Below, piece by piece: positions 26,812 to 42,528 of a stretch of 64,000 nt of DNA. The stretch is taken from positions 1 through 64,000 of the forward strand of contig NZ_FNTX01000001.1 in assembly GCF_900105765.1 (NCBI RefSeq). The letters are read 5' to 3'. The notes under the pieces were generated by a model. It worked only from the letters and a program-made list of their open reading frames with translations. It did no database searches and was not told where the DNA came from. Made by a program: the position numbers and the translations under genes. The stretch is from Ruania alba. GTDB taxonomy: Bacteria; Actinomycetota; Actinomycetes; Actinomycetales; Beutenbergiaceae. Every line of letters begins with the position of its first letter. The first letter of the stretch is position 1.

Positions 26812-28068
26812 TCACAGATCGATGTAATCGACCGGGTCGCGGTAGAAGTCGTCCAGGAGCACGGCGGCCGGGGACACGGTGAACTCTTGGTTCCCGAACG
26901 AGGGCGCACGCACCAGCGTCTGGACGTCACGCGTCACCCGGGAGTCGAGCGCTTCCTCCACCCCGGCCCAGATGTCGGTCAGGTACGTCGGTGTGTCCAG
27001 GGTGCCGCCGACGACCAGGATCTCGGGGTCGAAGAGCTCGATCAGGCGAGCGGCGGCGCGGCCGACGCGATGGGCCCGCTGGTGCAGCAGGGCAGCGGCG
27101 GCCGCGTTGCCGTCGTCGGCCGCCTCGAGCAGGTGGTCCATCGGATCGGTGTCATGGGGTGCCAGGAGGCCCGCCTCGGTGGCGTCGGCCACCACCGCCA
27201 TCTGGCTCGTGGCAGCGTTCAGGCAGTCCATCCGTCCACACCGGCACCGGTGTGCTGTCTCCTCACCGACACTGAGGTGGTCCACCACCCCGGCAGCATG
27301 GTGGGCCCCTTGCACAATCCGACCGTGGGAGAGCGCCGCCATCGCGACGACGTTGCCGACGAACAGGTAGACGAGGTTCTCCACGTGCGGGCTGTTGCCG
27401 AACAGCCGCTCTGCCAGCACGCCGGCGAACTCGTTGGCGGCCACCCGGGTCGGCAGCCCGGTCGCATGCTCGAGCTCGCCGGTGACGGGCACGTCGCGCC
27501 AGTCCATGGTCGGGTGCTCGATGATCCGTCCGCTCTGATGGTTCACCCAACCGCCGGTGGAGACGCCGATCCCAATCACCGTCTGGGGGATCCGCGCGAT
27601 GAGGGCCCGCACGGCGGCGATGATCTGTGGCAGCTCGCGTTCGGCGCTGCTGTCCCGGTGCGGGGAGTGCTCGGTATGGCTGACCCGCCCGAGCAGGTCC
27701 ACGACGCCCAGCCGCGTCGAGAGCGCGCCGATATGCACCGCGATCACCACATAGTCCCCACTGATCCGGACCGGCACGAGCGGGCGCCCGGGCGAACCGC
27801 TGGGGACGGCCGCATCCTCGACCAGCACGCCCTTCTGCAGCAGCGTGCCGGTGAGACGGGTGACGGTGGCCGTCGTCAGACCGGTGCGGGTGGCGAGCTG
27901 GGACCGCGCCAGCCCGGCGCCGTACCTCAACTCCGCGAGCACCGCAGCGAGGTTGGCCCGGCGCAGGACGGCGGTCGTGGCGTAGCCGCTCGTCGCCTCC
28001 TGGTCGGGGCCGGAGGGCCGGCCGGCACGGAATTGGTTCACATACGACAATTTATCAGCGCGCCGCAC
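26812..28068 (-). CDS. ROK-family transcriptional regulator
   Basis: A 418-residue ROK (NagC/XylR-type) regulator. A winged helix is at residues 30-90 (VLRRANLAAVLAELRYGAGL, SQLATRTGLTTATVTRLTG), followed by the sugar-kinase-like fold. The ROK zinc motif appears as HRCRCGRMDCLNA and the sugar site as VIGIGVSTGGWVNHQSGRI. The kinase-like part is probably only a sensor. It faces the end of the ABC/sulfatase operon and likely controls the island. The start is GTG at 28068. Confidence 0.93.
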   Translation of the reverse strand: MRRADKLSYVNQFRAGRPSGPDQEATSGYATTAVLRRANLAAVLAELRYGAGLARSQLATRTGLTTATVTRLTGTLLQKGVLVEDAAVPSGSPGRPLVPVRISGDYVVIAVHIGALSTRLGVVDLLGRVSHTEHSPHRDSSAERELPQIIAAVRALIARIPQTVIGIGVSTGGWVNHQSGRIIEHPTMDWRDVPVTGELEHATGLPTRVAANEFAGVLAERLFGNSPHVENLVYLFVGNVVAMAALSHGRIVQGAHHAAGVVDHLSVGEETAHRCRCGRMDCLNAATSQMAVVADATEAGLLAPHDTDPMDHLLEAADDGNAAAAALLHQRAHRVGRAAARLIELFDPEILVVGGTLDTPTYLTDIWAGVEEALDSRVTRDVQTLVRAPSFGNQEFTVSPAAVLLDDFYRDPVDYIDL

Positions 28069-28080
28069 TGTGACCGGAGG

Positions 28081-28731
28081 CTACTCCTGTCCGGCCTCGC
28101 GCTGGGCGGTCGCCTCGTCCAACCCAGGCTCCTCCTCGTCCGGCCGCCCGCGCAGCACCAGCCACGTCGCCACCGCCAACCCGAGCCCGCCGACCACCGC
28201 CACCGCGGCACCGGTCCCAGAGGGAAGCAGGTCGGCGAGCAATCGACGGCTGGGGGAGTCCGGGTTCACCAGCACCACGGTGGAGAAGGCCAGCACCAGC
28301 ACGGCGGCGATCCCGCGCGGCAGCACCGGGCGCACCCGTTCCACCCGGTTCACCAGCACCTGGCCGGAGCGCAGGATCCGGCGCACGCCGAGCACCCGCA
28401 GCGCCGCGACCACCCGCACCAGCCGCAGGATCTGCACCGGGCCCAGCGCCAGCACCACGCCGATGACGATGAGCACGGTGAGCAGCACCAGCCACCACTG
28501 CCGTCGCAGCCAGGCCCGCTTGTCCGCCGAGACCACGAACAGCACCACCGTCTCGGCAGTGAGCACCGCACCGGAGACGATATTGACCACCAGACCCACC
28601 GTCGTCCACGGCTCCGGCAGCAGGGTGAGGAACAGGGCAGGTACCGCCGCCAGCGCAGCCACCAGCACCGGCAGCCCGAACCTGCGGGCCCACTTCTCCT
28701 GCGTTGTCTCCTCGGGTGCCGTGTCCGTCAC
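28081..28731 (-). CDS. Voltage-sensor-like membrane protein without an ion-selectivity filter
   Basis: A 216-residue membrane protein, GTG start, overlapping the preceding transglutaminase gene by 4 bp. Five or six helices are seen at about residues 20-38, 42-67, 79-98, 139-156 and 174-193. Residues 99-121 form an arginine-repeat helix (LRLVRVVAALRVLGVRRILR; Arg103, 106, 112, 117, 118, 121) like the S4 voltage sensor of ion channels. No TVGYG-type filter or pore helix lies between the last two helices. It could be a pore-less voltage-sensor protein or a degenerate channel. Function unknown. Confidence 0.7.
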   Translation of the reverse strand: MTDTAPEETTQEKWARRFGLPVLVAALAAVPALFLTLLPEPWTTVGLVVNIVSGAVLTAETVVLFVVSADKRAWLRRQWWLVLLTVLIVIGVVLALGPVQILRLVRVVAALRVLGVRRILRSGQVLVNRVERVRPVLPRGIAAVLVLAFSTVVLVNPDSPSRRLLADLLPSGTGAAVAVVGGLGLAVATWLVLRGRPDEEEPGLDEATAQREAGQE

Positions 28732-29561
28732 GGCATCCGCACCGCCGCGCCCCGGTCCTCGACCGGAAGCTGCCCGTCCACGGTGGCCGTCACGGCCTGC
28801 TTCCCCATCCGGATCCCGGCACCGTAGGCGGACAGGAACGCGGTATCCGCCGCGTCCCTCCCGGTGGCCACCCGCAGCAGCGCCCGGCGCGGCGCCAGCC
28901 GGGTGGCGTCCACCACGTGCCAGTGCCCGTCCACCCACGCCTCGGCCACAGCGTGAAAGTCCATCGGGCGCAGCCCCGGCGCATACACCGCAGCCAGCCG
29001 CGCCGGCACGTCCATCGACCGCAGCACTGCAACCACCAGGTGGGCGTAGTCCCGGCACACTCCCTGCCCCTGCAGGAACGTCGAGACCGCGCCGTCGGTC
29101 ACCCGGCTGGACCCGGGCACGTAGAACAGGCGCTCGCCCACCCAGTCGGCCACCGCGTGCACCAGCTCCAGGCCGCTCGTCCCCGCGAACTCCCGCCGCG
29201 CCGTGGGCAACAGCTGGTCGGACTCGGCGTACCGGCTCGGGCGCAGGTAGGTCAGCAGGTCGGTGGCACCCGGCTCAGGCGACTGCTCGGCGGCATCGGC
29301 GGGATCGCCGTCCACCTGGGCGCGATACCGCACGGTCACGGCTCCAGCAGCACCGTCGGCACGGGTCAGGTCCACCAGGTGCAGCACACCGCAGTGCGGG
29401 GTGCCCACGTCCACCACGTCCACGGGCGCACCGTCCATGTGCACGGCGAGTTCGTCGTCGATCGCCAGCCCGGGCACGTGCGCCACGGCGATCATCAGCG
29501 CCAGCTGGGTGGAGCCGACCCCAGCGGTGAGGTTCAGCTCAGTGGTGACGGTGCGGCGCAC
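28728..29561 (-). CDS. Transglutaminase-like cysteine protease family protein
   Basis: A 277-residue protein from GTG 29561, six bases behind AAGGAG. The catalytic triad is visible: Cys169 in GQGVCRDYAHL, His203 in MDFHAVAEAWV, and Asp218 in HVVDATRLAP. The N-terminal part (VTTELNLTAGVGSTQLALMI) forms the usual beta domain. No signal peptide. Bacterial members are thought to act as proteases or amidases on peptides; the substrate is unknown. It is translationally coupled to the voltage-sensor-like gene downstream. Confidence 0.87.
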   Translation of the reverse strand: MRRTVTTELNLTAGVGSTQLALMIAVAHVPGLAIDDELAVHMDGAPVDVVDVGTPHCGVLHLVDLTRADGAAGAVTVRYRAQVDGDPADAAEQSPEPGATDLLTYLRPSRYAESDQLLPTARREFAGTSGLELVHAVADWVGERLFYVPGSSRVTDGAVSTFLQGQGVCRDYAHLVVAVLRSMDVPARLAAVYAPGLRPMDFHAVAEAWVDGHWHVVDATRLAPRRALLRVATGRDAADTAFLSAYGAGIRMGKQAVTATVDGQLPVEDRGAAVRMP

Positions 29562-29592
29562 GCGCAACTCCTTGTCGACGGACGACGCGATG

Positions 29593-30915
29593 TTACCGGT
29601 CCAGCCGGCCCAGCACATGATCGGTGTACTCATTGCCGAACAACCACGGCCCGACGGCGGCCCGCACCCTTTGCACGTCTGCCCACCTCGGATAGGTGGT
29701 CGCCAGGTCTGAGGCCCGACGGCGGTGCAGCTTCCCCCAGTGCGGGCGCCCGTCGTAGCCGCGCATGATGGCCTCCACTGCGCGGAAGTACCGGGCGTGG
29801 GGGAGGCGGTGGTATTGGTGCACTGCCACGTAGGCGGTCGGGCGACCGTACGCCGTCGAGAGCCACACCTGGTCGGCGGCGGCAAACCGCACCTCGATCG
29901 GGAAGGGGACGTTCTCCCCGCTACGGTGCAGCCACTGCTGGATCTCCCGCAGCGCCGGCACCACCGCCTCGGCGGGAATCGCATACTCCATCTCCGTGAA
30001 CCGCACCCGGCGCGGGGAGACGAAGACCTCGTGCGAGGTGGCCGTGTAGCGACGTGTCGAGAGCGCACGGGAGGCGAGCCGGTTCAGGTGCGGGGTCAGG
30101 GACGGCGCCGCGGTCGCGATCCGGTTCGTCACCTCGAACAGGCCGTTGCTGATCACCTCGTCCTCGAGGAACCGGCGGGCGGGAGGCAGCGGCGGAGCCG
30201 AGGAGCCGCGGGTGTTCGTCTTCGTCAGCGCCAGCTCGGTGTGCGGGAACCAGTAGAACTCGAAGTGGTCGGCGGCAACCAGATCGTCCAGCGACTCCAG
30301 CACGTGGTCCAGGCGCTTCGGCGTCTCGGTCGCGGTGAGCGTGAAGGCAGGCACGCAACGCAGCGTGACCGCGGTGAGCACCCCGGCTGTACCCAGCCCG
30401 AGGCGAGCCAGCTCGAAGAGGGAGGCTCCGCCGTCGGGAGACTCCGGCCCGACCTCGCGAACCTGACCATCGGCGGTGACCACCCGCAGCCCACGCACCT
30501 GCGTGGCCAACCCGCCCAGACGGGCCCCGGTGCCGTGGGTGCCGGTGGAGATCGCGCCCGCCAGGGACTGGGCGTCGATATCACCCATGTTCTCCATCGC
30601 CAGCCCGCGCTGGGCGAGCTCGCGGCACAGGGCGCGCAGCCGGATCCCGGCGCCCACCTGCACCAGCCGGGACCCGTCCGGTGCCGGGGTGCCGGTATGT
30701 TCGACGGCGTCCAGGTGGTCCAGGTGCAGCAAGATGCCGTCAGTGGCCGCGGCCGGGGTGAAGGAGTGCCCGGCCCCGACCACTCGGATGCGGGATCCGG
30801 TCTCGGCAGCGTGCCGGACGGCGTCGGCGACTTCGCCCTCGTCCCGTGGCGCGAGCACCCGCACCGGGTGCGCGGTGACCGTGCCGGACCAGTTCCGCCA
30901 GGTGTGCGCCGTCAT
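29593..30915 (-). CDS. D-arabinono-1,4-lactone oxidase-type FAD enzyme
   Basis: A 440-residue vanillyl-alcohol-oxidase-family flavoprotein. The FAD-binding PP-loop reads RIRVVGAGHSFTPAAATDGI and is followed by ISTGTHGTGARLGGLATQV. The C-terminal ALO domain ends with YDGRPHWGKLHRR, whose HWGK motif is diagnostic of aldonolactone oxidases (L-gulono/D-arabinono/L-galactono type). It oxidises a sugar lactone with reduction of oxygen or another acceptor. Arabinose-derived lactones are plausible given GH51 nearby, but the enzyme lies outside that operon. Confidence 0.9.
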   Translation of the reverse strand: MTAHTWRNWSGTVTAHPVRVLAPRDEGEVADAVRHAAETGSRIRVVGAGHSFTPAAATDGILLHLDHLDAVEHTGTPAPDGSRLVQVGAGIRLRALCRELAQRGLAMENMGDIDAQSLAGAISTGTHGTGARLGGLATQVRGLRVVTADGQVREVGPESPDGGASLFELARLGLGTAGVLTAVTLRCVPAFTLTATETPKRLDHVLESLDDLVAADHFEFYWFPHTELALTKTNTRGSSAPPLPPARRFLEDEVISNGLFEVTNRIATAAPSLTPHLNRLASRALSTRRYTATSHEVFVSPRRVRFTEMEYAIPAEAVVPALREIQQWLHRSGENVPFPIEVRFAAADQVWLSTAYGRPTAYVAVHQYHRLPHARYFRAVEAIMRGYDGRPHWGKLHRRRASDLATTYPRWADVQRVRAAVGPWLFGNEYTDHVLGRLDR

Positions 30916-30954
30916 CGGGCCATTGTGCCCGGCAGAGGCCCAGACGACGAAGGT

Positions 30955-30996
30955 GGCCTGAATGTCGCCGGATCGGCCGATCGCGACATCCAGGCC
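30955..30996 (-). terminator. Hairpin terminating the cys operon
   Basis: Arms GGCCTG-A-ATGTCGC and GCGACAT-C-CAGGCC with an inner loop of alternating GC, located 16 bases after the cysN stop and before the next minus-strand gene. Confidence 0.5.
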
Positions 30997-31011
30997 CCCC
31001 TCGTGGACGTT

Positions 31012-32424
31012 CTACGGGGTGCCGACCATCCCCGCGGCGAGGGTGTTCCCGTCGTGGGCGTCGATCAGCAGGAACGCACCGGTGCGGCGGGAGCGCTTGT
31101 AGTCCTCCGCCACGACGGCGTCCGCCAGCTTGATCCGCAGCGTGCCGATGTCGTTCAGCTCCAGCTGCTCGGCCGGCTCCGGGGCGGCGCTGAGCAGGTC
31201 GAGCCGCCCGGTCACCTCGGAGACGATCGCGCGCACGGTGCGGGTGGTCTGCTTGAGCAGCACCCGGGCGCCGGGGCGCAACGGCTGATCGCTGAGCCAG
31301 CTCACCGTGCCGGTGATCTCCTTGGTGCCCGACGGCGCCCCCTCAGCGGCCGCGATCAGATCACCGCGCGCGATGTCGATCTCGTCGCTCAACCGCAGAC
31401 TCACCGACTGTGGCGCGAACGCCTCCGCCAGCTCGCCGTCCGGGGTGTCGATCCCCTCCACCTGGGTGTACTTGCCACTGGGCAGCACCACCACGGTGTC
31501 GCCCACCCGCACCACACCAGCGGCAATCTGGCCGGCGTACCCGCGGTACTCCCGGTACTCCTCCGAGACGGCGGCTGCCTGGGGGCGCAGCACCGACTGC
31601 ACCGGCAGCCGGAACGGTTCGCCACCGGGGCTGTCGGCCACCGGGAGCGCCTCCAGCAGCTCCAGGAGGCTCGGGCCCTCGTACCAGGGCATCGAGTCGG
31701 TCGCCGGGGTCACCACGTTGTCGCCCACCAGCGCCGAGACCGGGATCGGGTGCACGTGCGGCACCCCGAGCGCGGTGGCGGCGTCGCGAATCTCCTCGGC
31801 GAGCTCGGTGAACCGCTCACGTGAGTAGTCCACCAGGTCGATCTTGTTCACGGCCACCACCACGTGCGGCACCCGGAGCAGGCCCACGACGGCGAGGTGG
31901 CGCCTGGTCTGCTCGAGCACCCCCTTGCGGGCGTCGATCAGCAGCACCACGGCATCCGCTGTGGAGGCACCGGTCACCGTGTTCCGGGTGTACTGCACGT
32001 GCCCGGGGCAATCGGCCAGGATGAAGGAACGCGTGGCAGTGGCGAAGTACCGGTAGGCCACGTCGATCGTGATGCCCTGCTCGCGCTCGGCACGCAGCCC
32101 GTCGGTCAGCAGGGCCAGGTCGGCGGTGTCCTGACCACGGTCGGTGGACACCCGCTCGATCGACTCCCACTGGTCGGCCAGCACCGACTTGGAGTCGTAC
32201 AGCAGCCGGCCCACCAGGGTCGACTTGCCGTCGTCCACCGAACCGGCGGTGGCCAGGCGCAGCAGCGTCCCGGCCGCCGTGGGGTCCACCGCGTCCGGGT
32301 CGACGGCGGTCGGGTCCGTGGCCAGGTCGTGCTCGCTGGTCGTGGCTTGCTCGGTCACAGTGCTCCAGGTGAGAGTGCCGGGGGAGGAGGTGTCGCCTGT
32401 CGTGGTGTCGGTGGTGGCGCCCAT
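31012..32424 (-). CDS. cysN: Sulfate adenylyltransferase subunit 1 (GTPase)
   Basis: A 470-residue GTPase subunit of ATP sulfurylase. GTP hydrolysis drives formation of adenylyl sulfate by CysD. G1 is AGSVDDGKST (residues 60-69), then DCPGH, then NKID. Beta-barrel domains 2 and 3 follow (PVQSVLRP, RGYAGQIAAGVVRVGDTVVV). The length shows that no APS kinase (CysC) domain is fused, which fits the direct APS reductase route in this operon. A 50-residue Thr/Asp-rich N-terminal extension is present. The start overlaps the cysD stop (ATGA). Confidence 0.96.
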   Translation of the reverse strand: MGATTDTTTGDTSSPGTLTWSTVTEQATTSEHDLATDPTAVDPDAVDPTAAGTLLRLATAGSVDDGKSTLVGRLLYDSKSVLADQWESIERVSTDRGQDTADLALLTDGLRAEREQGITIDVAYRYFATATRSFILADCPGHVQYTRNTVTGASTADAVVLLIDARKGVLEQTRRHLAVVGLLRVPHVVVAVNKIDLVDYSRERFTELAEEIRDAATALGVPHVHPIPVSALVGDNVVTPATDSMPWYEGPSLLELLEALPVADSPGGEPFRLPVQSVLRPQAAAVSEEYREYRGYAGQIAAGVVRVGDTVVVLPSGKYTQVEGIDTPDGELAEAFAPQSVSLRLSDEIDIARGDLIAAAEGAPSGTKEITGTVSWLSDQPLRPGARVLLKQTTRTVRAIVSEVTGRLDLLSAAPEPAEQLELNDIGTLRIKLADAVVAEDYKRSRRTGAFLLIDAHDGNTLAAGMVGTP

Positions 32425-33431
32425 CAGAAGTACCCCTCCTTCTTGCGGTCCTCCATGGCTGCTTCGGACATCCGGTCGTCGGCGCGGGTGGCGCCTCGTT
32501 CGGTGATCCGTGTCGCAGCCACCTCGGCCACCACGTCCTCCGGAGTCGCCGCCTCGGAGAGCACCGCACCGGTGCAGCTCATGTCACCGACCGTGCGGTA
32601 GCGCACCCGTTCGGTGCGCACGCTGGCACGCTCGGCCTCGGTCTTCGGCTGGGCGTGCTCCCCGACGGCGAGCAGCATCCCGTCGCGGTCGAAAACCTCC
32701 CGCTCGTGGGCGTAGTAGAGGGCGGGCAGCTCGATGCCCTCTGCCGCGATGTAGGCCCACACGTCCAGCTCGGTCCAGTTCGACAGCGGGAAGGCGCGCA
32801 CGTGCTCACCGGGCCGGTGCTTGCCGTTGTAGAGGTTCCACAGCTCGGGCCGCTGGTTGCGCGGGTCCCACTGGCCGAACTCGTCGCGCAGGGAGATCAC
32901 GCGCTCCTTGGCCCGGGCCTTCTCCTCATCCCGCCGGCCACCGCCGAACACGGCGTCGAACTTGTTCCCGGTGATGGCGTCCAGCAGCGGCTGGGTCTGC
33001 AGCGGGTTGCGCGTGCCGTCGGAGCGCTCCCGCAACCGGCCGTCGTCGATGTAGTCCTGCACCTTCGCCACGTTCAGCTTGACGTCGAGACGCGCAGCGG
33101 TGGAGTCGCGGTACTCGAGCACCTCGGGGAAGTTGTGCCCGGTGTCCACGTGCAGCACACCGAAAGGCACCTTGCCGGGCCAGAACGCCTTCGCCGCCAG
33201 GTGCAGCATCACCACCGAGTCCTTGCCGCCGGAGAACAGCAGCACCGGTCGCTCGAACTCGGCCACCACCTCACGGATCAGGTGGATGCTCTCGGTCTCC
33301 AGGGCCTCGGCCCGGGGCAGGCGGAATTGTCCGCGGTCCGAGGCGCTCGCGGTGGTCACGCCATCCGTGGTGCCGGTCGTCGATCGGTGGCCCGTCGTGT
33401 GCTCCACCAGTGTGGTCAGGTCAGTGTTCAT
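32424..33431 (-). CDS. cysD: Sulfate adenylyltransferase subunit 2
   Basis: A 335-residue catalytic subunit of ATP sulfurylase (ATP + sulfate to APS + PPi), acting with CysN. The PP-loop SGGKDS lies in RPVLLFSGGKDSVVMLHLA, and HVDTGHNFPEV, FGGGRRDEEKARAKER and the C-terminal DRKKEGYF are family signatures. A 35-residue Thr/Ser-rich N-terminal extension precedes the core. The ATG at 33431 overlaps the cysH stop. The frame is open further upstream but only as a cysH shadow. Confidence 0.96.
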   Translation of the reverse strand: MNTDLTTLVEHTTGHRSTTGTTDGVTTASASDRGQFRLPRAEALETESIHLIREVVAEFERPVLLFSGGKDSVVMLHLAAKAFWPGKVPFGVLHVDTGHNFPEVLEYRDSTAARLDVKLNVAKVQDYIDDGRLRERSDGTRNPLQTQPLLDAITGNKFDAVFGGGRRDEEKARAKERVISLRDEFGQWDPRNQRPELWNLYNGKHRPGEHVRAFPLSNWTELDVWAYIAAEGIELPALYYAHEREVFDRDGMLLAVGEHAQPKTEAERASVRTERVRYRTVGDMSCTGAVLSEAATPEDVVAEVAATRITERGATRADDRMSEAAMEDRKKEGYF

Positions 33432-34276
33432 GTGTGCAGCCCGCATTCGGTCTTGTCCAGGCCGGCCCACCGGCCGGATCGTGGGTCGGCGCCGGGTGCG
33501 ACACGCGCCGTGCACGGTGCGCACCCGATCGAGGGATAGCCGTCGTTCAGCAGGGGATTGAGGATGACCCCGTGTGCGTCGGCGTAGTTCTGCAGGTCCT
33601 CGGTGGACCAGGACGCCACCGGGTTGATCTTCACCAGTCCGTTCTTCTCGTCCCAGGTCACCAGGGGAGTGTTCGCGCGGGTCGGCGCTTCCTCCCGGCG
33701 CACGCCAGTCACCCAGGCCTCGTACCCGGCGAGCGTGCGCTGCAGCGGCTCCACCTTGCGCATCGCGCAGCACGCGGCCGGGTCCCGGGCGAACAAGTCC
33801 TTGCCGTACTCGGCATCCTGCTCCGCCACGGTCAGCTTCGGCAGCACGTCCACCACGGTCACGTCCATCTCGTGCGCGACTCGTTCGCGAGTGCCGACAG
33901 TCTCGGCGAAGTGATATCCGGTCTCGAGGAAGAGCACATCCACCCACGGCGCCGCCTGGGACACCAGGTGCGGCAGCGCCGCATCCGCCATCGAGCACGC
34001 CACCGCCAGCGAGGTGCCGAACTCCTCCGCGGCCCACGCGGCCACCTCGGCGGGGCTCGCCTCGTCGTCGGCGCCGATCCCGGAACCATGAAGCAGCTGC
34101 TGGCCGCGCGCCACGATCTCCTTCAGCTCCGCCTCGGACCGCTTCGGCGGCGCGGCGGCACGGCGCTCGGCGTGCGCAGCACGGGCAGCCTCCCGGGCTG
34201 CCTGACGTTCCTGTGCGATGCGCCGGGCCGTCGCCAGCGGGCTGGCGTCGACCTCCGTGTGTGCACTGGTACTCAC
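33428..34276 (-). CDS. cysH: Adenylyl-sulfate (APS) reductase, [4Fe-4S] type
   Basis: A 282-residue reductase converting APS to sulfite with thioredoxin. Cys169-Cys170 (AACCAMRKVEPL) and Cys252/Cys255 (GCAPC) form the four-cysteine iron-sulfur site that marks APS rather than PAPS specificity. The catalytic Cys278 is in the C-terminal ECGLHT. Absence of CysC in the operon agrees. A 45-residue basic, Ala-rich N-terminal extension is present. The GTG start overlaps the sulfite reductase stop by 4 bp. Confidence 0.95.
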   Translation of the reverse strand: MSTSAHTEVDASPLATARRIAQERQAAREAARAAHAERRAAAPPKRSEAELKEIVARGQQLLHGSGIGADDEASPAEVAAWAAEEFGTSLAVACSMADAALPHLVSQAAPWVDVLFLETGYHFAETVGTRERVAHEMDVTVVDVLPKLTVAEQDAEYGKDLFARDPAACCAMRKVEPLQRTLAGYEAWVTGVRREEAPTRANTPLVTWDEKNGLVKINPVASWSTEDLQNYADAHGVILNPLLNDGYPSIGCAPCTARVAPGADPRSGRWAGLDKTECGLHT

Positions 34277-36003
34277 TTCAGGACCTCCTCGTCCGCACGG
34301 CGAGCCCAGGAGGCGAACGACTCACGTTCGGCCTCGGCACCTGGCTCGGTCTCGGACAGGTATCGCCGGGTCACCCGCTCGACGTAGTCTGGCAGATCGT
34401 CGCTGGTGACCTTCAGACCTCGCACGGTGCGTCCCAGACCGGCCTCTTCCCGGTCCTCGGACGCCAGCCCCCCGCCCAGGTGCACCTGGAAACCCGGGAC
34501 CTGCTCGCCGTCGTCGTTCATCACCAGCTGGCCCTTGAGGCCGATATCGGCGGTCTGGATCCGGGCGCAGGAGTTCGGGCACCCGTTCAGGTGCAGGGTG
34601 AGCGGACGCAGGTCCGGCACGTCGGCGAGGCGCTCCTCCAACTCGTCGATCGCCCGGGCCGCGGTGGCCTTGGTCTCGACGATCGCGAGCTTGCAGTACT
34701 CGATGCCGGTGCAGGCGATGGTGCTGCGGCGGAACGGGCTCGGCTTCGGGTCCAGCCCGAGGTCCCGCAGCCCCCGCGTCACCGGCTCCAGGGACTCCTC
34801 GGGGATGTCCAGCACAAGCAGCTTCTGGTGCGGGGTGAGGCGCACCCGCTGCGAGCCCACCGACTCGGCCAGATCCGCAACTGCCGCGAGTGTCTCGCCG
34901 TTGACCCGGCCCACGTACGGGGCCGCACCCACGTAGTAGCGGCCGTCCTTCTGCGCGTGCACCCCCACGTGGTCGCCGGGCATCCGCGGCTGCGGGGCCG
35001 GTGGCCCGTCGGGGAGGTCGTACCCGAGGTACTCGTCCTGCAGTACCTGGCGGAACTTCTCCGGCCCCCAGTCGGCGAGCAGGAACTTCAGGCGGGCCTT
35101 GTTGCGCAGCCGGCGGTAGCCGTAGTCGCGGAAGATCGACGCCACGCCGTGCCACACGTCGGGGGCCTGCTCGGCCGTGGCGAACACTCCGAGCCGCTCA
35201 CCCAGTCGAGGGTTCGCGGACAACCCACCACCGACCCACACATCGAATCCAGCGCCCAGCTCGGGATGCTCGAGCCCGACGAAGGCGACGTCGTTGATCT
35301 CGTGCACCACGTCCTGGCTCGGATGACCGGTCAGGGCCGTCTTGAACTTGCGTGGCAGGTTCGCCAGCTCGGGCACGCCGAGGTAGCGCCGGTTGATCTC
35401 CTCGATCACCGGGCTGGGGTCGAGGATCTCGTCCGCGGCGATTCCGGCCACCGGGCTGCCGAGCACCACCCGCGGCACATCACCACATGCCTCCGTGGTG
35501 CCCAGGCCGACGGCCTCGAGGCGGCGCCAGATCTCGGGCACGTCCTCCACCTGCACCCAGTGCAGCTGGATGTTCTGCCGGTCGGTGATGTCGGCGGAGT
35601 CACGCGCGAACTCGGTGGAGATCGTCGCGATCACGCGCAACTGTTCGGTGGTGAGCGCGCCGCCGTCGATGCGCACGCGGAGCATGAAGAACTTGTCCTC
35701 GAGCTCGTGCGGTTCGAGGGTGGCGGTCCGGCCGCCGTCGATACCGGGCTTGCGCTGGGTGTACAGACCCCACCAGCGGAACCGGCCGTGCAGGTCATCA
35801 CCGGGGATCGAGTCGAACCCCTCCTTGCTGTAGACCTGCTCGATGCGCTCGCGCACGTTCAGGCCGTTGTCCTCCTGCTTGAAGGCCTCGTTGTGATTCA
35901 GCGGCTCCTTGCCGTCCACGAGCCACTGGCCGTTGGGGCGCTTCGGGCGGGCAGGACGGGGTGCAGCGGCGGGCCGTTCGGTGGTGGCGGTCTGGCCGGT
36001 CAT
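34273..36003 (-). CDS. sir: Ferredoxin-dependent sulfite reductase (siroheme, SirA type)
   Basis: A 576-residue enzyme reducing sulfite to sulfide. The four cysteines that bind the [4Fe-4S]-siroheme centre are Cys431 and Cys437 (CTGIEYC) and Cys475 and Cys479 (NGCPNSC). Tyr81 (RWWGLYTQ) and Cys173 (TEACGD) are 92 residues apart. In Mycobacterium tuberculosis SirA, Tyr69 and Cys161, also 92 apart, form a covalent thioether next to the siroheme, so the same cross-link is expected. The start ATG at 36003 follows GAGGAG. First enzyme gene of the sulfate assimilation operon, preceded by the cysteine-rich leader ORF. Confidence 0.95.
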   Translation of the reverse strand: MTGQTATTERPAAAPRPARPKRPNGQWLVDGKEPLNHNEAFKQEDNGLNVRERIEQVYSKEGFDSIPGDDLHGRFRWWGLYTQRKPGIDGGRTATLEPHELEDKFFMLRVRIDGGALTTEQLRVIATISTEFARDSADITDRQNIQLHWVQVEDVPEIWRRLEAVGLGTTEACGDVPRVVLGSPVAGIAADEILDPSPVIEEINRRYLGVPELANLPRKFKTALTGHPSQDVVHEINDVAFVGLEHPELGAGFDVWVGGGLSANPRLGERLGVFATAEQAPDVWHGVASIFRDYGYRRLRNKARLKFLLADWGPEKFRQVLQDEYLGYDLPDGPPAPQPRMPGDHVGVHAQKDGRYYVGAAPYVGRVNGETLAAVADLAESVGSQRVRLTPHQKLLVLDIPEESLEPVTRGLRDLGLDPKPSPFRRSTIACTGIEYCKLAIVETKATAARAIDELEERLADVPDLRPLTLHLNGCPNSCARIQTADIGLKGQLVMNDDGEQVPGFQVHLGGGLASEDREEAGLGRTVRGLKVTSDDLPDYVERVTRRYLSETEPGAEAERESFASWARRADEEVLK

Positions 36004-36092
36004 GGTGCTCCTCGACGGGGCCTGGATGGCGGGCTGGGCAGGTGCTGCCGCGCGATGAGTGCTCGCTCGGCGATGGGGCTGGCTGGGGTGAT

Positions 36093-36176
36093 TCAGCAGC
36101 AGCGACAGCAACAGCCGGGCATTCGGCCCGGGCCACCGACGTCGGTGGGCTGCGGGTGCACGAGGCGGGCGAACAT
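36093..36176 (-). CDS. Polycysteine leader peptide, candidate cysteine attenuator of the sulfate operon
   Basis: A 27-codon ORF upstream of sir. It reads MFARLVHPQPTDVGGPG and ends MPGCCCRCC before TGA (cysteine codons at 36096-36113 on the plus coordinate). A -10-like TACCGT (complement of 36184-36189) ends exactly 7 bases before the ATG, so transcription could begin at the A of ATG and the mRNA would be leaderless. Leaderless polycysteine ORFs that act as cysteine-responsive attenuators before sulfur genes are described in mycobacteria. Low Cys-tRNA would stall ribosomes here and change expression of sir-cysHDN. Ninety bases separate it from sir. Confidence 0.68.
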   Translation of the reverse strand: MFARLVHPQPTDVGGPGRMPGCCCRCC

Positions 36177-36275
36177 GATGGCGACGGTAGCCCGCCGGCT
36201 CAGCCCGATGGGGAACACCCCTGCAGAGTCCGCATCGTGGACCCACGGGTGTCGGACCTGGGTGAGAATGAGTAG

Positions 36276-37550
36276 ATGAGTCGTATCGGCAGGGTGGGGG
36301 CCACAGACGCGGGAGGCCGGCCGCGGTCCGGTGTGGGCAGGGCGCCACGGCCGGCGCCGTGGCGGGACGCGACCCGCTCGTTGTCCGCGCCGATCGCGGT
36401 GGTCGACCTCGACGCCTTCGATGCGAACGCCGCCGATCTGCTCGCGCGGGCCGGTGGGGTGCCGCTGCGGGTCGCATCGAAGTCGGTGCGGGTCCGTCAC
36501 CTCGTCCGCCGCGCGCTCGATCGGGGGTTCGCCTCCGTGATGGCGTACTCCCTCGCGGAGGCGCTGTGGCTCGCCGAGGACGGCGTGCGCGACATCCTGG
36601 TCGGCTATCCCAGCGTGGACACCGCCGCGCTGGTCCGGCTCGCCCAGGACCCGGTTGCCCGTGAGGCGATCACCGTGATGGTCGACGACGTCTCCCAGGT
36701 GGCGCTGCTCGAGCGTGCATTCATGCGGGCCGAAGGCGGTGAGAGTGCCGCTGTGAGCGGGGCGCCGATCAACGTGTGCCTGGATGTGGATGCCTCGCTG
36801 CGGCTCGGCCTCGGACCGCTCTCGGCCCACCTGGGCGTGCGTCGCTCACCCTTGCGCACCCCCGAGGACGTGGTGCGACTGGCGCGGGCCACTGAACGCA
36901 CCGGACGGTTGCGGGTCCGTGGCGTGATGTTCTACGAGGCGCAGGTGGCCGGTGTGCCGGACGGTTCCGGGTGGCGCAACCCGGGGGTGCAGGTGATGAA
37001 AGGGCTCTCGTTGCGCGATCTGGCCCGGCGTCGACCGGCCGTGGTGGCTGCGCTGGAGGATCACCTCGGCCGGGACGTGCTCGTGAACGGAGGCGGTACC
37101 GGCTCGTTGCAGCAGACGGCGACCGACCCCACGGTCACCGAGCTCACCGCCGGGTCAGGGCTGCTGTGCCCGACGTTGTTCGACTCCTACGATGCCTTCG
37201 ACTCCCGCCCGGCCGCGTTCTTCGGGCTGGACGTGGTGCGCCGCCCCGCCGCCCGCATCGCCACAGCCTTCGGTGGTGGCTACGTCGCGTCCGGGCCCGC
37301 CCACGCGAGCAGGTTGCCCCGACCGGTCGACGGTGCGCGGCTGCTGGGTTCCGAGGGTGCCGGTGAGGTGCAGACACCGTTGCGTTACCGGCCACGGAGG
37401 TCGGTGCCCGCGGTGGGCGCGCGGGTGTGGTTGCGCCATGCCAAGGCCGGCGAGCTGATGGAGCGCTTCGACCAGGTACGACTGGTGCGCGGTGCGGCGG
37501 TGGTCGACGCGGTGCCGACGTATCGTGGTGAGGGCCAGAACTTCGGCTGA
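36276..37550 (+). CDS. PLP-dependent amino-acid deaminase/aldolase (alanine-racemase-like N-terminal barrel)
   Basis: A 424-residue fold-type III PLP enzyme. The PLP lysine is in VASKSVRVRHLVRRALDRG. The barrel continues with VMAYSLAEALWLAEDGV and ILVGYPSVDT, and the phosphate-binding loop is probably VNGGGTGS. The C-terminal beta domain ends VPTYRGEGQNFG. Similar to D-threonine aldolase/D-serine dehydratase-like proteins annotated 'amino acid deaminase/aldolase'; reaction and substrate are uncertain. It is divergent from the sulfur operon and shares its 100-bp control region with the leader ORF. Confidence 0.84.
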   Translation: MSRIGRVGATDAGGRPRSGVGRAPRPAPWRDATRSLSAPIAVVDLDAFDANAADLLARAGGVPLRVASKSVRVRHLVRRALDRGFASVMAYSLAEALWLAEDGVRDILVGYPSVDTAALVRLAQDPVAREAITVMVDDVSQVALLERAFMRAEGGESAAVSGAPINVCLDVDASLRLGLGPLSAHLGVRRSPLRTPEDVVRLARATERTGRLRVRGVMFYEAQVAGVPDGSGWRNPGVQVMKGLSLRDLARRRPAVVAALEDHLGRDVLVNGGGTGSLQQTATDPTVTELTAGSGLLCPTLFDSYDAFDSRPAAFFGLDVVRRPAARIATAFGGGYVASGPAHASRLPRPVDGARLLGSEGAGEVQTPLRYRPRRSVPAVGARVWLRHAKAGELMERFDQVRLVRGAAVVDAVPTYRGEGQNFG

Positions 37551-37595
37551 CTACGGGCAGGCGCCCGAGGCGGCCACGACCGACGAGGAGGGTGT

Positions 37596-38258
37596 GTGGC
37601 CAGCGGTTCCTTCCGCCGTCCGGCGATGCTCAGCCCCGAGGTGGCCGAGGCCATCCCGGGTGAACCGGATCCGGCCGAGCGCAACGAGCTCGCGCACGCC
37701 ACGGCGGCGGCGCTCGTGCACGGTGGCCGAGCGAGCATGCCCGGGCCCCGGCCCGGGACCGATCCGGAGGACGAGGCGGCGATGGTGCGCCGCCTGATCG
37801 AGCTGGTGGACACCGAGGGGCTGGATCTGCTGGCCCAGCTCTGGGCGTCCAGCCCGGCCGACACCCTCCCCGGTGCCCTGTGGCGGCTCTACGTGCTGCG
37901 CGAGTGGACCCGGCGCGATCCGCGCACCATCGCCGAGCGGTACCACCTGGGGGTGCACCAGGCGGAAGTGGCCGGTGTGGTCGCCGGTGTCGGCTCCCCA
38001 CCCGGACCGGACCAGATCCAAGAGCTCGCCGATGCCGTGCTGCACGGGGTGTTTCGGGGAGAACTGGACGTGGCGCTCGACCGGGCCGGGGCGTTCCTGC
38101 GCGTGCTGGCCGCCGGCTCGGCGATGGACGCGGACTGGGTGGAGCTCTCCGACGACGCCCGCGCGAGCGAGCTGACCCAGCGTGCCGGAACGCTGATGGA
38201 GACCGCGGAGGATCTCGAGCAGGCCGCCGCGCTGTGGCGCGCCGGGAAGCTGGACTGA
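37596..38258 (+). CDS. Conserved actinobacterial protein of unknown function upstream of mshD
   Basis: A 220-residue soluble, acidic, helix-rich protein. The GTG start follows GAGGAGG. Segments such as GALWRLYVLREWTRRDPRTI and the acidic C-terminus are visible. No catalytic motif, membrane segment or signal peptide is visible, and I do not recognise the family. The stop overlaps the mshD start (TGATG), so it is co-translated with mycothiol synthase. Confidence 0.75.
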   Translation: MASGSFRRPAMLSPEVAEAIPGEPDPAERNELAHATAAALVHGGRASMPGPRPGTDPEDEAAMVRRLIELVDTEGLDLLAQLWASSPADTLPGALWRLYVLREWTRRDPRTIAERYHLGVHQAEVAGVVAGVGSPPGPDQIQELADAVLHGVFRGELDVALDRAGAFLRVLAAGSAMDADWVELSDDARASELTQRAGTLMETAEDLEQAAALWRAGKLD

Positions 38259-39142
38259 TGCCCGGCGAACTGAGCACGACGGCGTCCCTCGCCTCCGCCG
38301 AATCCGTCGCCGTGCGAGCGCTCGCCCAGGCCGCCGAGGAGACCGACGGGATCGAGGCGCTCTCCGAGCAGACCCTGCTCAACCTGGCCCCAGCAGATCG
38401 GGACCTCACGCACCTGTTGGTGCGGTCGCCGTCGGGCCAGGTGCTGGGCTACGCCCAGCACGACGTAGCAGGCGGCTCGGCGGAGCTGGCGGTGCACCCT
38501 GAACACCGCCGGCAGGGAATCGGCCGGAGGCTGCTGGAGGAGGTGCTGCGGGCGCCGGACGTGGCCGTCTGGGCGCACGGCGACCTGCCGGCGGCGCAAG
38601 CGCTCGCCCATGCCGAACAGCTGCGCCGGGTCCGGGATCTGTGGGTGATGACGGCGCCGCCGCCGACGGGCGAGGACCTGACGATCCCGCAGCGTGACGG
38701 GCTGCGAGTGCGGACCTTCGAGGTGGGCCGGGACGAGGACGCGTGGGTACAGGTGAACGCGCTCGCGTTCGCCGACCATCCCGAGCAGGGGCGGCTCACC
38801 CGCGCCGACCTGGAGCAACGAGAGGCGCAGAACTGGTTCGACCCCGAGGTCTTCTTCCTCGCCGAGGACGTGAACACCCGGGAACTGCTCGGCAGCCTGT
38901 GGGTGAAGATCGAGGGAAATCCCGGACACCAGGTCGGCGAGATCTATGCGCTCGGCGTGCACCCGCAGGCGCAGGGCCGCGGCGTGGGTGGGGTGCTCAC
39001 CGCCCATGCGATGGCCGCCTTCGCCGCCCGGAATCTCGTGCGGATCGAGCTGTACGTGGAGGGGGAGAACACCGCGGCGATCCGCACCTACACCCGCGCC
39101 GGGTTCACCCGCGAACGCGCCGACGTGCAGTACGCACGCTGA
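38258..39142 (+). CDS. mshD: Mycothiol synthase
   Basis: A 294-residue acetyltransferase with two GNAT domains, performing the last step of mycothiol synthesis (acetyl-CoA + Cys-GlcN-Ins). Domain 1 has [19 protein letters not shown]. Domain 2 has the active acetyl-CoA loop ([19 protein letters not shown]) and NAIRTY-like [33 protein letters not shown] and [14 protein letters not shown] are typical MshD signatures. ATG at 38258 was chosen as it gives the family length. Mycothiol is found only in actinobacteria, which supports the host assignment. Confidence 0.94.
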
Positions 39143-39201
39143 GGCGATCACGCACTGGAACCAGTTCCCACCCGTGGGAGCGAGGTGACACGATAGGCGC
39201 C

Positions 39202-41544
39202 ATGAGCGAGCAGGTCGGATCGATGCACGGGGCGGATGGCGGCCGGCCGTCCGGGCAGTCCTTCTTCCGGTCGGGCAAGGCCCCGGTGACTGCTCACGCC
39301 CGGTCTGCCGTGTCCGGCTCCGCGAACGTGACAGCACTGGACGGGTCGGTGACCCCTCATCCGAGCGTTCCCCCGGTCGAGCGAGACACGGGTGCAGTGC
39401 CGGCTGAACCGTCCGATCGGGAACTGCCATCTGACCGGTTCGCCGACCGGGAGCTGAGCTGGCTGCAGTTCAACGAGCGGGTGCTCGAGCTTGCCGAGGA
39501 TCCGGATCTGCCCCTGCTGGAGCGGGTGCGGTTCCTGGCGATCTTCGCCTCCAACCTGGACGAGTTCTTCATGGTCCGCGTGGCCGGGCTGAAGCGTCGT
39601 ATCGCAACCGGAATGGCTGTTCAGGCCGCGTCGGGCCTGCTGCCGCGGCAGGTGCTGGAGAGCATCTCCACGAAGGCGCACGAGCTCACCGATCGGCACG
39701 CGGCGGTGTTCGCCGACCACGTGCAGCCGGCGCTCGCGGCGGAGGGCATCACGCTGGTGCACTTCGATCAGCTGCACGACAGTGAGCGGGACCGGCTGCA
39801 CAAGTACTTCCGGAAGATGATCTTCCCGGTGCTCACGCCGCTGGCGGTCGATCCGGCGCACCCGTTCCCCTACATCTCCGGGCTCTCGCTGAACCTGGCC
39901 GTGCTGCTGCGCAACCCGACCACCGGCAAGGAGCACTTCGCCCGGGTGAAGGTGCCACCCCTGCTGCCCCGGTTCATCGCGGTGGACGCCCGCGGACGAC
40001 CGCACCGCCCAGAGGACGCCCCCGACGACGACGGGTACCGCTCGTTCGTGCCGATCGAGGACGTCATCTCGTCCTTCCTCTACTACCTGTTCCCCGGGAT
40101 GGACGTGGTGGAGCACCACGTGTTCCGGGTGACCCGCAACGAAGACCTCGAGGTGGAGGAGGACGACGCGGAGAACCTGCTCAAGGCGCTGGAGAAGGAG
40201 CTGCTGCGCCGCCGGTTCGGTCCGCCCGTGCGGCTCGAGCTGGCCACCGGGTTCACCCCGCGGCTGCGCGAGATGCTGATCCGCGAGCTCGATATCTCCG
40301 AGCCGGACGTGTACGAACTGCCGATGCCGCTGGATCTGACCGGGCTCAACCTGGTGGCAGACCTCGACCGCCCCGAGCTGCACTATCCCAAGCACGTGGC
40401 CATCACCCCGCGCGGGCTGGCCGAGGTGGAGAGTGCCACACCCACCGACATCTTCCAGGCGATCCGTGGCCGGGACATCTTGCTCCACCACCCCTACGAC
40501 TCGTTCTCCACGAGCGTGCAGCAGTTCGTCGCCCAGGCTGCGGCCGACCCCAAGGTGCTGGCGATCAAGCAGACCCTCTACCGCACCTCTGGCGACTCGC
40601 CGATCGTGGACTCCCTCATCGATGCCGCAGAGGCGGGCAAGCAGGTGCTCGCGATCGTGGAGATCAAGGCTCGCTTCGACGAGGAGGCGAACATCTCCTG
40701 GGCCCGCAAGCTCGAGCAGGCGGGTGTGCACGTGGTCTACGGGATCGTCGGGCTGAAGACGCACTGCAAGCTCTCCCTCGTCGTGCGTCAGGAAGCTGAC
40801 GGCCTGCGCCGCTACTGCCACGTCGGTACCGGGAACTATCACCCCAAGACGGCGCGTCTGTACGAGGATCACGGACTACTCACCTGCAACCCGGAGGTGG
40901 GCCAGGACCTGACGCGGTTGTTCAACCAGCTTTCCGGCTACGCGCCGAAGAGCCGGTTCCATCGGTTGCTGGTGGCACCGCGGGGGATCCGGCGCGGACT
41001 GGTCGAGCGCGTGGAGAAGGAGATCGCGAACGCGCGGTCGGGCAAGCCCGCCTGGGTGAAGTTCAAGGTCAACTCGGTGGTGGACGAGCAGACGATCGAC
41101 GCCCTGTACCGGGCTTCCCAGGCGGGCGTGCCGGTCGATGTGGTGGTGCGCGGGATCTGCGCGATCAAGGCGGGTGTGCCGGGTTTGAGCGAGAACATCC
41201 GGGTGCGTTCCGTCCTCGGCCGATTCCTCGAGCATTCCCGGGTGTATGCCTTCGCGAACGGCGGTGAGCCGGAGGTGTTCTTCGGGTCGGCCGACCTGAT
41301 GCACCGCAATCTTGACCGCCGGGTGGAGGTGCTGGTGCGGGTGGTCGACCCCGACCAGATCGCCGACCTGGTCGGACTGATCGACACATCGACAGCTGAA
41401 GGGACGTCGTCGTGGCATCTGAGTACCGATCCCGACGGTGATCCGCAATGGGAACGACACCATCGCGATGAGGAGGGCGCACCACTCCTCGATCTGCAGG
41501 AGCACCTGATGTCGGTGCATCGCCGGCGAAGCGCGGACAGCTGA
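39202..41544 (+). CDS. ppk: Polyphosphate kinase 1
   Basis: A 780-residue kinase that reversibly polymerises ATP gamma-phosphate into polyphosphate. The core starts at [19 protein letters not shown] after an 80-residue low-complexity N-terminal extension. [18 protein letters not shown] and ARFDEEANI belong to the PLD-like catalytic domains. The autophosphorylated histidine lies in [14 protein letters not shown]. The start ATG at 39202 is chosen over the open frame to 38743, which only shadows mshD. It lies in a phosphate block with pst genes. Confidence 0.96.
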
Positions 41545-41547
41545 GTC

Positions 41548-42528
41548 ATGGCGTCCTCGGGTCGCGTCGTTCGTGCGGCCGGGGCGTTGGTCTGGCGGAT
41601 CGTCGGACGACACCTCGAGGTGCTGCTGATTCACCGCCCCCGCTACGACGACTGGTCGTGGCCGAAGGGCAAGCTGGATTCTCCGCACGAGAGCCTGCCG
41701 ATGTGCGCCGTGCGGGAGGTCCAGGAGGAGACCGGGATCCCGGTGGTGCTGGGGCTGCCACTGCCGACAGTGAGCTACAAACTCGCGGGTGGCGTGCGCA
41801 AGGTGTGCCACTACTGGGCCGCCACCCCTGCCGACGTGGACGGCGTGGACGTGGCCGCCCTGAACGCACGTCCGCGGATCAAACCTGCCTCCAAGCACGA
41901 GGTGGACGAGGCCCGCTGGGTGGAGGCGAAGAAGGCGCGCAAGCTGCTCACCCGGTCCGATGATCTCGAGCCGCTCGGGGCACTGATGGACTACTTTGAG
42001 GACGGCCTGTTGCGCACCTGGACTCTGCTCCTGGTGCGGCACGGGCGAGCGAAGAAGCGGTCGGCCTGGACCGGTGGCGAGGCCAGTCGGCCGTTGACGC
42101 CGGTGGGCCGGGACCAGGCGAAGGCGCTCGTCCCGATCTTCGCGGCGTACGGGGTGCACGAGGTGATCTCCTCGCCCTGGTTACGGTGTCGCGCCACGAT
42201 GACCCCGTACTCGGATGCGTGCGACACGGTGATCGTGTCCGCGCCGCAGGTCACCGAGGCGGCTGCCCGGGATCGGCCGGCAGGCGTACGCGCACTGGTC
42301 GGAGACCTGCTCGGGAGGCCACGCGAGGCGACGGCGGTGTGCACGCACCGTCCGGTGTTCCCGTTCGTGCTGGAGGCGGTCGAGGCCCGCAGCCCGCACC
42401 GGGTGGCCAAACAACTGCCCCAGGAGAACCCGTACCTGCGTACCGGTGAGGTGCTCGTGGTGCACGTGTCGCGCCGGGAGAACCGGCGCGCCCGGGTGGT
42501 GGCCGTGGAGCGGCACCGACCCTCCTGA
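41548..42528 (+). CDS. Nudix hydrolase fused to a histidine phosphatase (MutT1 type)
   Basis: A 326-residue two-domain enzyme starting 3 bp after ppk. The Nudix box is GKLDSPHESLPMCAVREVQE followed by ETG (residues 45-67). The C-terminal phosphoglycerate-mutase-like domain has LLVRHGRAKK at about residue 163 and THRPVFP near the end. Mycobacterial MutT1 has this layout and hydrolyses 8-oxo-GTP/dGTP and dinucleoside polyphosphates. Sanitation of oxidised nucleotides or diadenosine polyphosphate breakdown is therefore likely; the fused phosphatase domain could remove the remaining phosphate. Confidence 0.91.
   Translation: MASSGRVVRAAGALVWRIVGRHLEVLLIHRPRYDDWSWPKGKLDSPHESLPMCAVREVQEETGIPVVLGLPLPTVSYKLAGGVRKVCHYWAATPADVDGVDVAALNARPRIKPASKHEVDEARWVEAKKARKLLTRSDDLEPLGALMDYFEDGLLRTWTLLLVRHGRAKKRSAWTGGEASRPLTPVGRDQAKALVPIFAAYGVHEVISSPWLRCRATMTPYSDACDTVIVSAPQVTEAAARDRPAGVRALVGDLLGRPREATAVCTHRPVFPFVLEAVEARSPHRVAKQLPQENPYLRTGEVLVVHVSRRENRRARVVAVERHRPS

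Follow-up and report, generated by a model that had tools for sequence, protein, structure and literature searches.

We consider it probable that a short upstream open reading frame (uORF) ahead of the sulfate assimilation genes sir-cysHDN of Ruania alba specifies a leader peptide and serves this operon as a cysteine-responsive, ribosome-mediated attenuator, working like the leader of mycobacterial nirA. The control would be a known kind of attenuation that takes an unusual form here, the uORF with its Cys codons most likely being a gauge of cysteine supply that the ribosome reads. Below, the window refers to the whole 64,000-nucleotide stretch of DNA that we analyzed.

Direct reading of the sequence bore out the 27-codon ORF that had been predicted ahead of sir. 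On the minus strand it starts with an ATG at 36176..36174 and runs through a CCCRCC tail to a TGA ending at 36093. The TACCGT hexamer that had been reported 7 nt 5′ of this ATG is indeed there, and a TANNNT box closely 5′ of an ATG is the established geometry of leaderless starts in actinobacteria. The position upstream of sir was also right, although the gap, given as 90 bp, is 89 nt, the sir ATG lying at 36003. The genes 3′ of the uORF follow in the order sir-cysH-cysD-cysN (Table 1). The sir product matched PF01077 and PF03460, with every NCBIfam match under its cut-off, and is presumably of the ferredoxin type. An Rfam search of 28000..42000 returned no match at gathering thresholds.

Table 1. 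Features of the sir-cysHDN leader region and operon in the window
Feature	Positions	Strand	Basis
Leaderless-type uORF, 27 codons, MFARLVHPQPTDVGGPGRMPGCCCRCC	36093..36176	-	sequence, locus scans, shuffles
-10 promoter hexamer TACCGT, 7 nt (CGCCATC) 5′ of uORF ATG	36184..36189	-	sequence
Sensor tract TGT TGC TGT CGC TGC TGC (Cys22-Cys27)	36096..36113	-	sequence; UGU bias
Predicted 9-bp helix, 5′ arm UGCUGUCGC, within Cys tract	36102..36110	-	fold
Predicted 9-bp helix, 3′ arm GCGGCAGCA, in spacer	36043..36051	-	fold
89-nt spacer, C-rich and G-poor (C 0.48, G 0.25), possible Rho-loading stretch	36004..36092	-	composition
Shine-Dalgarno GAGGAG of sir	36008..36013	-	sequence
sir, sulfite reductase, ferredoxin type (NirA/SirA-like), presumed	34273..36003	-	Pfam NIR_SIR and NIR_SIR_ferr
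cysH, phosphoadenylyl-sulfate reductase	33428..34276	-	NF002537 above cut-off
cysD, sulfate adenylyltransferase small subunit	32424..33305	-	TIGR02039 above cut-off; start approximate, from model match
cysN, sulfate adenylyltransferase large subunit	31012..32424	-	TIGR02034 above cut-off
Imperfect palindrome TCCACGATGCGGA (also written TCCACNATGYGGA), candidate operator, ~60 bp upstream of uORF ATG	36229..36241	-	1 window match vs shuffle mean 0.03

Leaderless-type geometry with a Cys run ahead of sir was seen again across related genera, as the original prediction would have it. We scanned sir loci for TANNNT placed 6-8 nt before an ATG or GTG, the short ORF opened there having to stop ahead of sir or shortly past its start. 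Among the 80 named nearest sir loci, which we take to be nearly all from Micrococcales, a leaderless-type uORF containing two or more Cys occurs at 16: three from Oerskovia, two from Sanguibacter, two from Cellulosimicrobium, and one each from Sediminihabitans, Luteimicrobium, Cellulomonas bogoriensis, Myceligenerans, Promicromonospora, Antribacter, Pengzhenrongella, Isoptericola and a MAG, species that share descent and are thus not independent. The MAG locus L053 would add a seventeenth if a non-consensus CACTCT box, recognized by eye and kept outside the count, were allowed. In the 20 uORF loci that were scored, TANNNT stands 6-7 nt 5′ of the start, the scan itself requiring 6-8 nt. The expected conservation of Cys codons among relatives held for the Cys-rich tail, which recurs across genera, but not for the exact Cys positions, which vary. 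At the 68 loci that have no such uORF (64 named and four more), TANNNT lies 5-8 nt before a candidate sir start in 40, and 30 of these show the Arthrobacter-type TACAGT 6 nt before the chosen ATG; judging from this arrangement, the mRNA of those 40 loci appears to begin directly with sir, as a leaderless gene.

The attenuator model that we infer covers the transcription start, translation, and stalling with its direction. Transcription would start at or beside the ATG at 36176, so that a ribosome would load on the 5′ AUG without a Shine-Dalgarno. When cysteine is plentiful, this ribosome would cross the six-codon tail, stop at 36093, and leave. When charged tRNA-Cys is short, it would stall on Cys22-Cys27, first at the UGU codon of Cys22, and the stall would raise expression of the sir operon. 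Stalling on Cys codons as a means of sensing is ordinary attenuator logic. By position, the uORF is analogous to HVDL-type leaders before sir in other actinobacteria and to the mycobacterial nirA/Msmeg_4527 leader described in excerpts of PMC4633059.

How a stall would reach sir in the window is a matter of nearly even evidence, and we lean slightly toward the view that Rho-dependent termination in the C-rich spacer is lost, rather than that a closed ribosome-binding site is freed. A classical attenuator with an intrinsic terminator was rejected, since a consensus scan of 35900..36400 found no hairpin followed by a T run between the uORF and sir. Mean C minus G amounted to 0.19 in the spacers vs 0.07 in the promoters and 0.06 in the uORFs (n = 20, near-duplicates kept); it was 0.03 in 130-nt stretches upstream of sir at the 68 uORF-less loci, an imperfect control because many of these stretches are promoters. 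Because an intrinsic terminator is lacking and the spacers are C-rich and G-poor, a Rho-type output would fit, the fit being one of base composition. Compared with its shuffles, the window leader shows no extra stability (z of -1.02 and -0.42), despite the predicted 9-bp pairing of tract and spacer.

The competing reading of this step is translational attenuation as in Mycobacterium smegmatis, in which the leader would fold so as to close the sir ribosome-binding site until stalling within the Cys tract opens it; we regard it as quite possible, if somewhat short of even. It shares its sensor with the Rho reading and differs in the output step. Structural detail of translational attenuation in M. 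smegmatis is reportedly found in Canestrari 2020. Excerpts of PMC9031893 and PMC13236596 cite the same work for regulation of downstream translation by the leader. We folded 20 loci under constraint, placing the ribosome either on the first Cys of the tail or on the stop codon; for L007 and L018 the sir start used is doubtful. On stalling, predicted Shine-Dalgarno accessibility rose by at least 0.1 in 6 of the 20 (L009, L011, L018, L083, L084, and L086). Three of these are the other uORF members of the window's genus, where it went from 0.47 to 0.66 (L083), 0.36 to 0.51 (L084), and 0.27 to 0.55 (L086), a rise that counts partly against the Rho reading, and in each of the four genus leaders the sir Shine-Dalgarno and ATG are predicted to lie within a hairpin. 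That hairpin, however, shows variation at a single pair, confined to one of its sides, and it overlaps the beginning of the coding region. Predicted accessibility in the window is flat (0.63 free, 0.65 stalled, and 0.64 with the ribosome at the stop), the change is below 0.1 at 13 of the 20 loci, accessibility falls at one other (L007), and the site is predicted to be closed in L014 (0.03) and L012 (0.13) and to stay shut on stalling (0.03 and 0.07). RNAalifold, run on nine longer-spacer and four genus leaders, predicted at the sir start no helix that is backed by changes on both strands. Opening of the sir site in the window was set aside, as constrained folding shows no change there, and translational attenuation was kept as a rival on account of the other loci. 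As a separate observation, the Cys of L014 (Antribacter) and L012 (Myceligenerans) lie mid-peptide, and the site opens in the model with the ribosome at the stop (0.26 and 0.52), not at the Cys codons; in L014, sequence just 3′ of the uORF stop is predicted to close the sir Shine-Dalgarno.

Whichever output step applies, the Cys codons themselves follow a pattern. Across 18 distinct polycysteine uORFs (near-duplicates L003 and L086 were dropped, and L053 and L085 are not included), UGU accounts for 47 of 79 Cys codons. For comparison, UGU stands for 2 of 101 cysteines in sir at the 20 loci concerned and for 6 of 420 in sir of L002-L081, and among the remaining twofold NNY codons that these uORFs contain, 3 of 58 end in U. 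UGU is concentrated toward the stop, with 39 of 49 in the last six codons vs 8 of 30 earlier; every one of the 18 uORFs has at least one UGU, and the very last Cys is UGU in 14, the window uORF ending on UGC. The HVDL-type sir leaders, a set largely separate from the polycysteine uORFs, have UGU for the Cys at H+11 in 88 of the 88 distinct sequences with Cys at that position (3 of 91 lack it), and this core UGU spans 22 of the 30 family groups sampled. Off the core, UGU makes up 30 of 61 Cys codons in these leaders, and in the sir genes of L208-L236 it makes up 3 of 152. The p-values of the UGU bias overstate independence because the sequences are related by descent, so the family-group count is the sounder measure.

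One account, which we place barely under an even chance, is that UGU is the obligatory sensor codon of actinobacterial cysteine attenuators, selected since wobble would make the time that a ribosome spends on the codon respond more steeply to charged tRNA-Cys; the codon, not the peptide, would then do the sensing. Codon bias in attenuators has been explained by selective charging of isoaccepting tRNAs (excerpts of PMC1183508). That account is ruled out here because the genome, with 45 tRNA matches, has only one tRNA-Cys, anticodon GCA, which serves UGC as well as UGU, the latter by wobble. So far as our literature searches reach, the UGU rule is new: we found no statement of it, Canestrari 2020 could contain it, the text of PMC4046918 has no UGU, and the rule is absent from the excerpts of PMC1262725, PMC4633059, PMC8079986, PMC9031893, PMC13236596, PMC8632094, PMC9094748, PMC9386245, PMC1183508, and PMC3848588.

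The bias could instead come from a constraint on the RNA that needs the third-base U, be it a small hairpin CAGC:GCUG, GCUG over the stop codon, or a protein site, an explanation that we think conceivable but rather less than an even prospect. In its favor, AGC encodes the H+8 Ser in 72 of 78 HVDL-type leaders, and all four CAGC:GCUG pairs are possible in 44 of 91 HVDL leaders and three in another 22. G never follows the core UGU, the next base among L208-L355 being C in 63, U in 17, A in 8, and G in 0 (n = 88); it follows UGU in 1 of 47 cases in the polycysteine uORFs and Cys codons in 167 of 420 cases in the sir genes. Against such a constraint, UGU is also enriched off the core and in polycysteine tails, and the window has no CAGC ahead of its tract.

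To place the peptide among known leaders, we drew on a class-wide search that found sir in 151 of 197 genomes, our own included. Upstream DNA was taken for 148 of the other 150 (in 6 cases under 400 nt), and in 98 of these 148 class members (91 distinct) sir is preceded by a leader that fits [RK].?H[VI]D[LMF]. When three HVDL-type peptides were compared with the NCBIfam model NF042934 (cis_reg_atten, cut-off 27 bits), two scored above the cut-off and one just under. The window peptide and four relatives had no NCBIfam match at E up to 10, neither to this model nor to NF042936 (Ms4527A family, cut-off 45 bits), which agrees with the earlier view that the peptide is unlike mycobacterial leaders; nor do the eight genomes of the window's genus hold an NF042934 match above cut-off. 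Common descent with HVDL leaders was not borne out by a home-made profile of 84 HVDL peptides, which gave E 21 for the window peptide; its best E against the polycysteine peptides was 0.038 (L014). By sequence, then, the polycysteine leader of the window's clade is a divergent form that lacks the HVDL core and occupies the same position before sir, and two marks of the functional class, a run of Cys codons near the stop (CCCRCC-stop) and a location upstream of a sulfur assimilation operon, can be read directly from the DNA.

Likeness to described systems goes only so far. The Ms4527A leader before mycobacterial nirA/Msmeg_4527 (excerpts of PMC4633059) is likewise a short ORF with clustered Cys before a sulfite reductase gene, and its leaderless start parallels the one predicted for the window uORF, but the window peptide falls outside its model. 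Leaders of group f8, mycobacterial to judge by leader type, mostly have an RRH(V/I)D(L/F)KRV core ahead of the Cys, which the window peptide lacks. With HVDL-type leaders it shares the place before sir, the UGU codon, and their typical UGA stop (76 of 91), whereas these usually carry one or two Cys and a core like LVxRRHVDLxRVxSAxC that is missing here. The uORFC-8-2 motif before cysS of Rhodobacterales (excerpts of PMC8632094) resembles it in having tandem Cys codons in a regulatory uORF and differs in its dominant UGC, its intrinsic terminator, and its gene. The cys leaders of Seliverstov 2005 from Mycobacterium, Propionibacterium acnes, and Bifidobacterium longum (excerpts of PMC1262725) are alike in the Cys run near the stop, the missing terminator, and the proposal of Rho, which was made for mycobacteria; they belong to other lineages, and the excerpts mention neither a leaderless start nor a UGU bias. 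Since Cys-run leaders had thus been predicted for P. acnes and B. longum in 2005, and HVDL-type leaders also precede sir in so many other class members, the window does not provide the first extension beyond mycobacteria that the original prediction had anticipated.

Within the window's genus, sir is present in 5 of 8 genomes and the uORF in 4 of those 5. The tails read CCCRCC, CRCR, CRCRCH, and CRCRCH, and beyond MF at the start and RMPGC the peptide body is little conserved. In G020 (L085), sir, promoter, palindrome, and uORF ATG are kept, the Cys tract and most of the spacer are lost, and the uORF runs into sir, overlapping its start. A role for the Cys-rich peptide in its own right, such as metal or redox binding, would suit the CCCRCC tail but is very improbable given a body so little conserved while position, start geometry, and Cys tail recur. 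The gene itself is patchy in the genus, with no sir match in G015, G017, and G021 (3 of 8), one of which is 92 percent complete. The window sir is about 80 percent identical to Oerskovia and Sediminihabitans genes and about 70 percent to that of another genus of its own family, and gene transfer is possible.

We also asked how often such an ORF arises at random. When the 450 nt ahead of the window sir were dinucleotide-shuffled 3,000 times, no leaderless-type ORF with at least three Cys in the last 14 codons appeared. By this stricter rule, 14 of the 80 named loci score vs none of 3,160 shuffles (79 loci x 40; L033, with only 11 nt upstream, was left out of shuffling). Under relaxed limits the window holds four leaderless-type short ORFs, and at least two tail Cys occur in this uORF only. 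Over 797,258 bases (window and loci, overlapping window copies included and L135-L164 left out), the scan found 61 leaderless-type short ORFs, and those with at least three tail Cys always lie ahead of sir, with L010 1155..1099 as the sole exception. Although GCTGCTGA strings are common and TGYTGYTRA alone has 258 matches in the genome, a chance ORF in GC-rich DNA is excluded for practical purposes by these shuffles and by recurrence in other genera. With so many matches, the bare Cys-Cys-stop pattern proved useless as a search tool. Its leaderless version, which fixes spacing, start, and last codons so that other forms could escape, occurs twice in the genome, at this uORF and on contig C2, and once in G015; the locus scan found no qualifying ORF at L167 (the C2 place) or L166 (the G015 place), and a genome-wide set of such leaders was accordingly dismissed. 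None of the 30 loci from a PALP search and 30 from a rhodanese search, which covered 3 of the genome's 5 PALP matches and 6 of its 7 rhodanese matches, has such a leader.

Further upstream, the palindrome TCCACGATGCGGA is identical in all five sir-bearing genus genomes, and its 14-base form TCCRCNATGYGGAC matches once in the whole genome; it may be a site for a sulfur regulator. In five genus genomes the 14-base form has 10 matches. Four lie before sir and two before a gene for an SDF symporter, recognized by Pfam at L202 and by eye at L200, one of these two being in G021, which is without sir; no sir or SDF symporter context was seen at the other 4. Separately, four genomes of the window's family (L400-L403) carry RRAVDLxRxASAxC leaders before an SDF symporter gene (PF00375). 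Against NF042934, three of these leaders scored above cut-off and one just under, and the core Cys is UGU in all four. Our guess is that this symporter carries cystine.

Taken as a whole, leaderless polycysteine control of sulfur assimilation would be carried here into a lineage and a peptide form that annotation is likely to overlook because the current NCBI leader models do not match the peptide. The UGU rule is sharp at the core position (88 of 88) and bears on why attenuators choose particular synonymous codons. If UGU is the sensor codon, the window's clade, having no HVDL core, has kept or multiplied only the codon-level sensor, which would show that the codon, not the peptide, senses.
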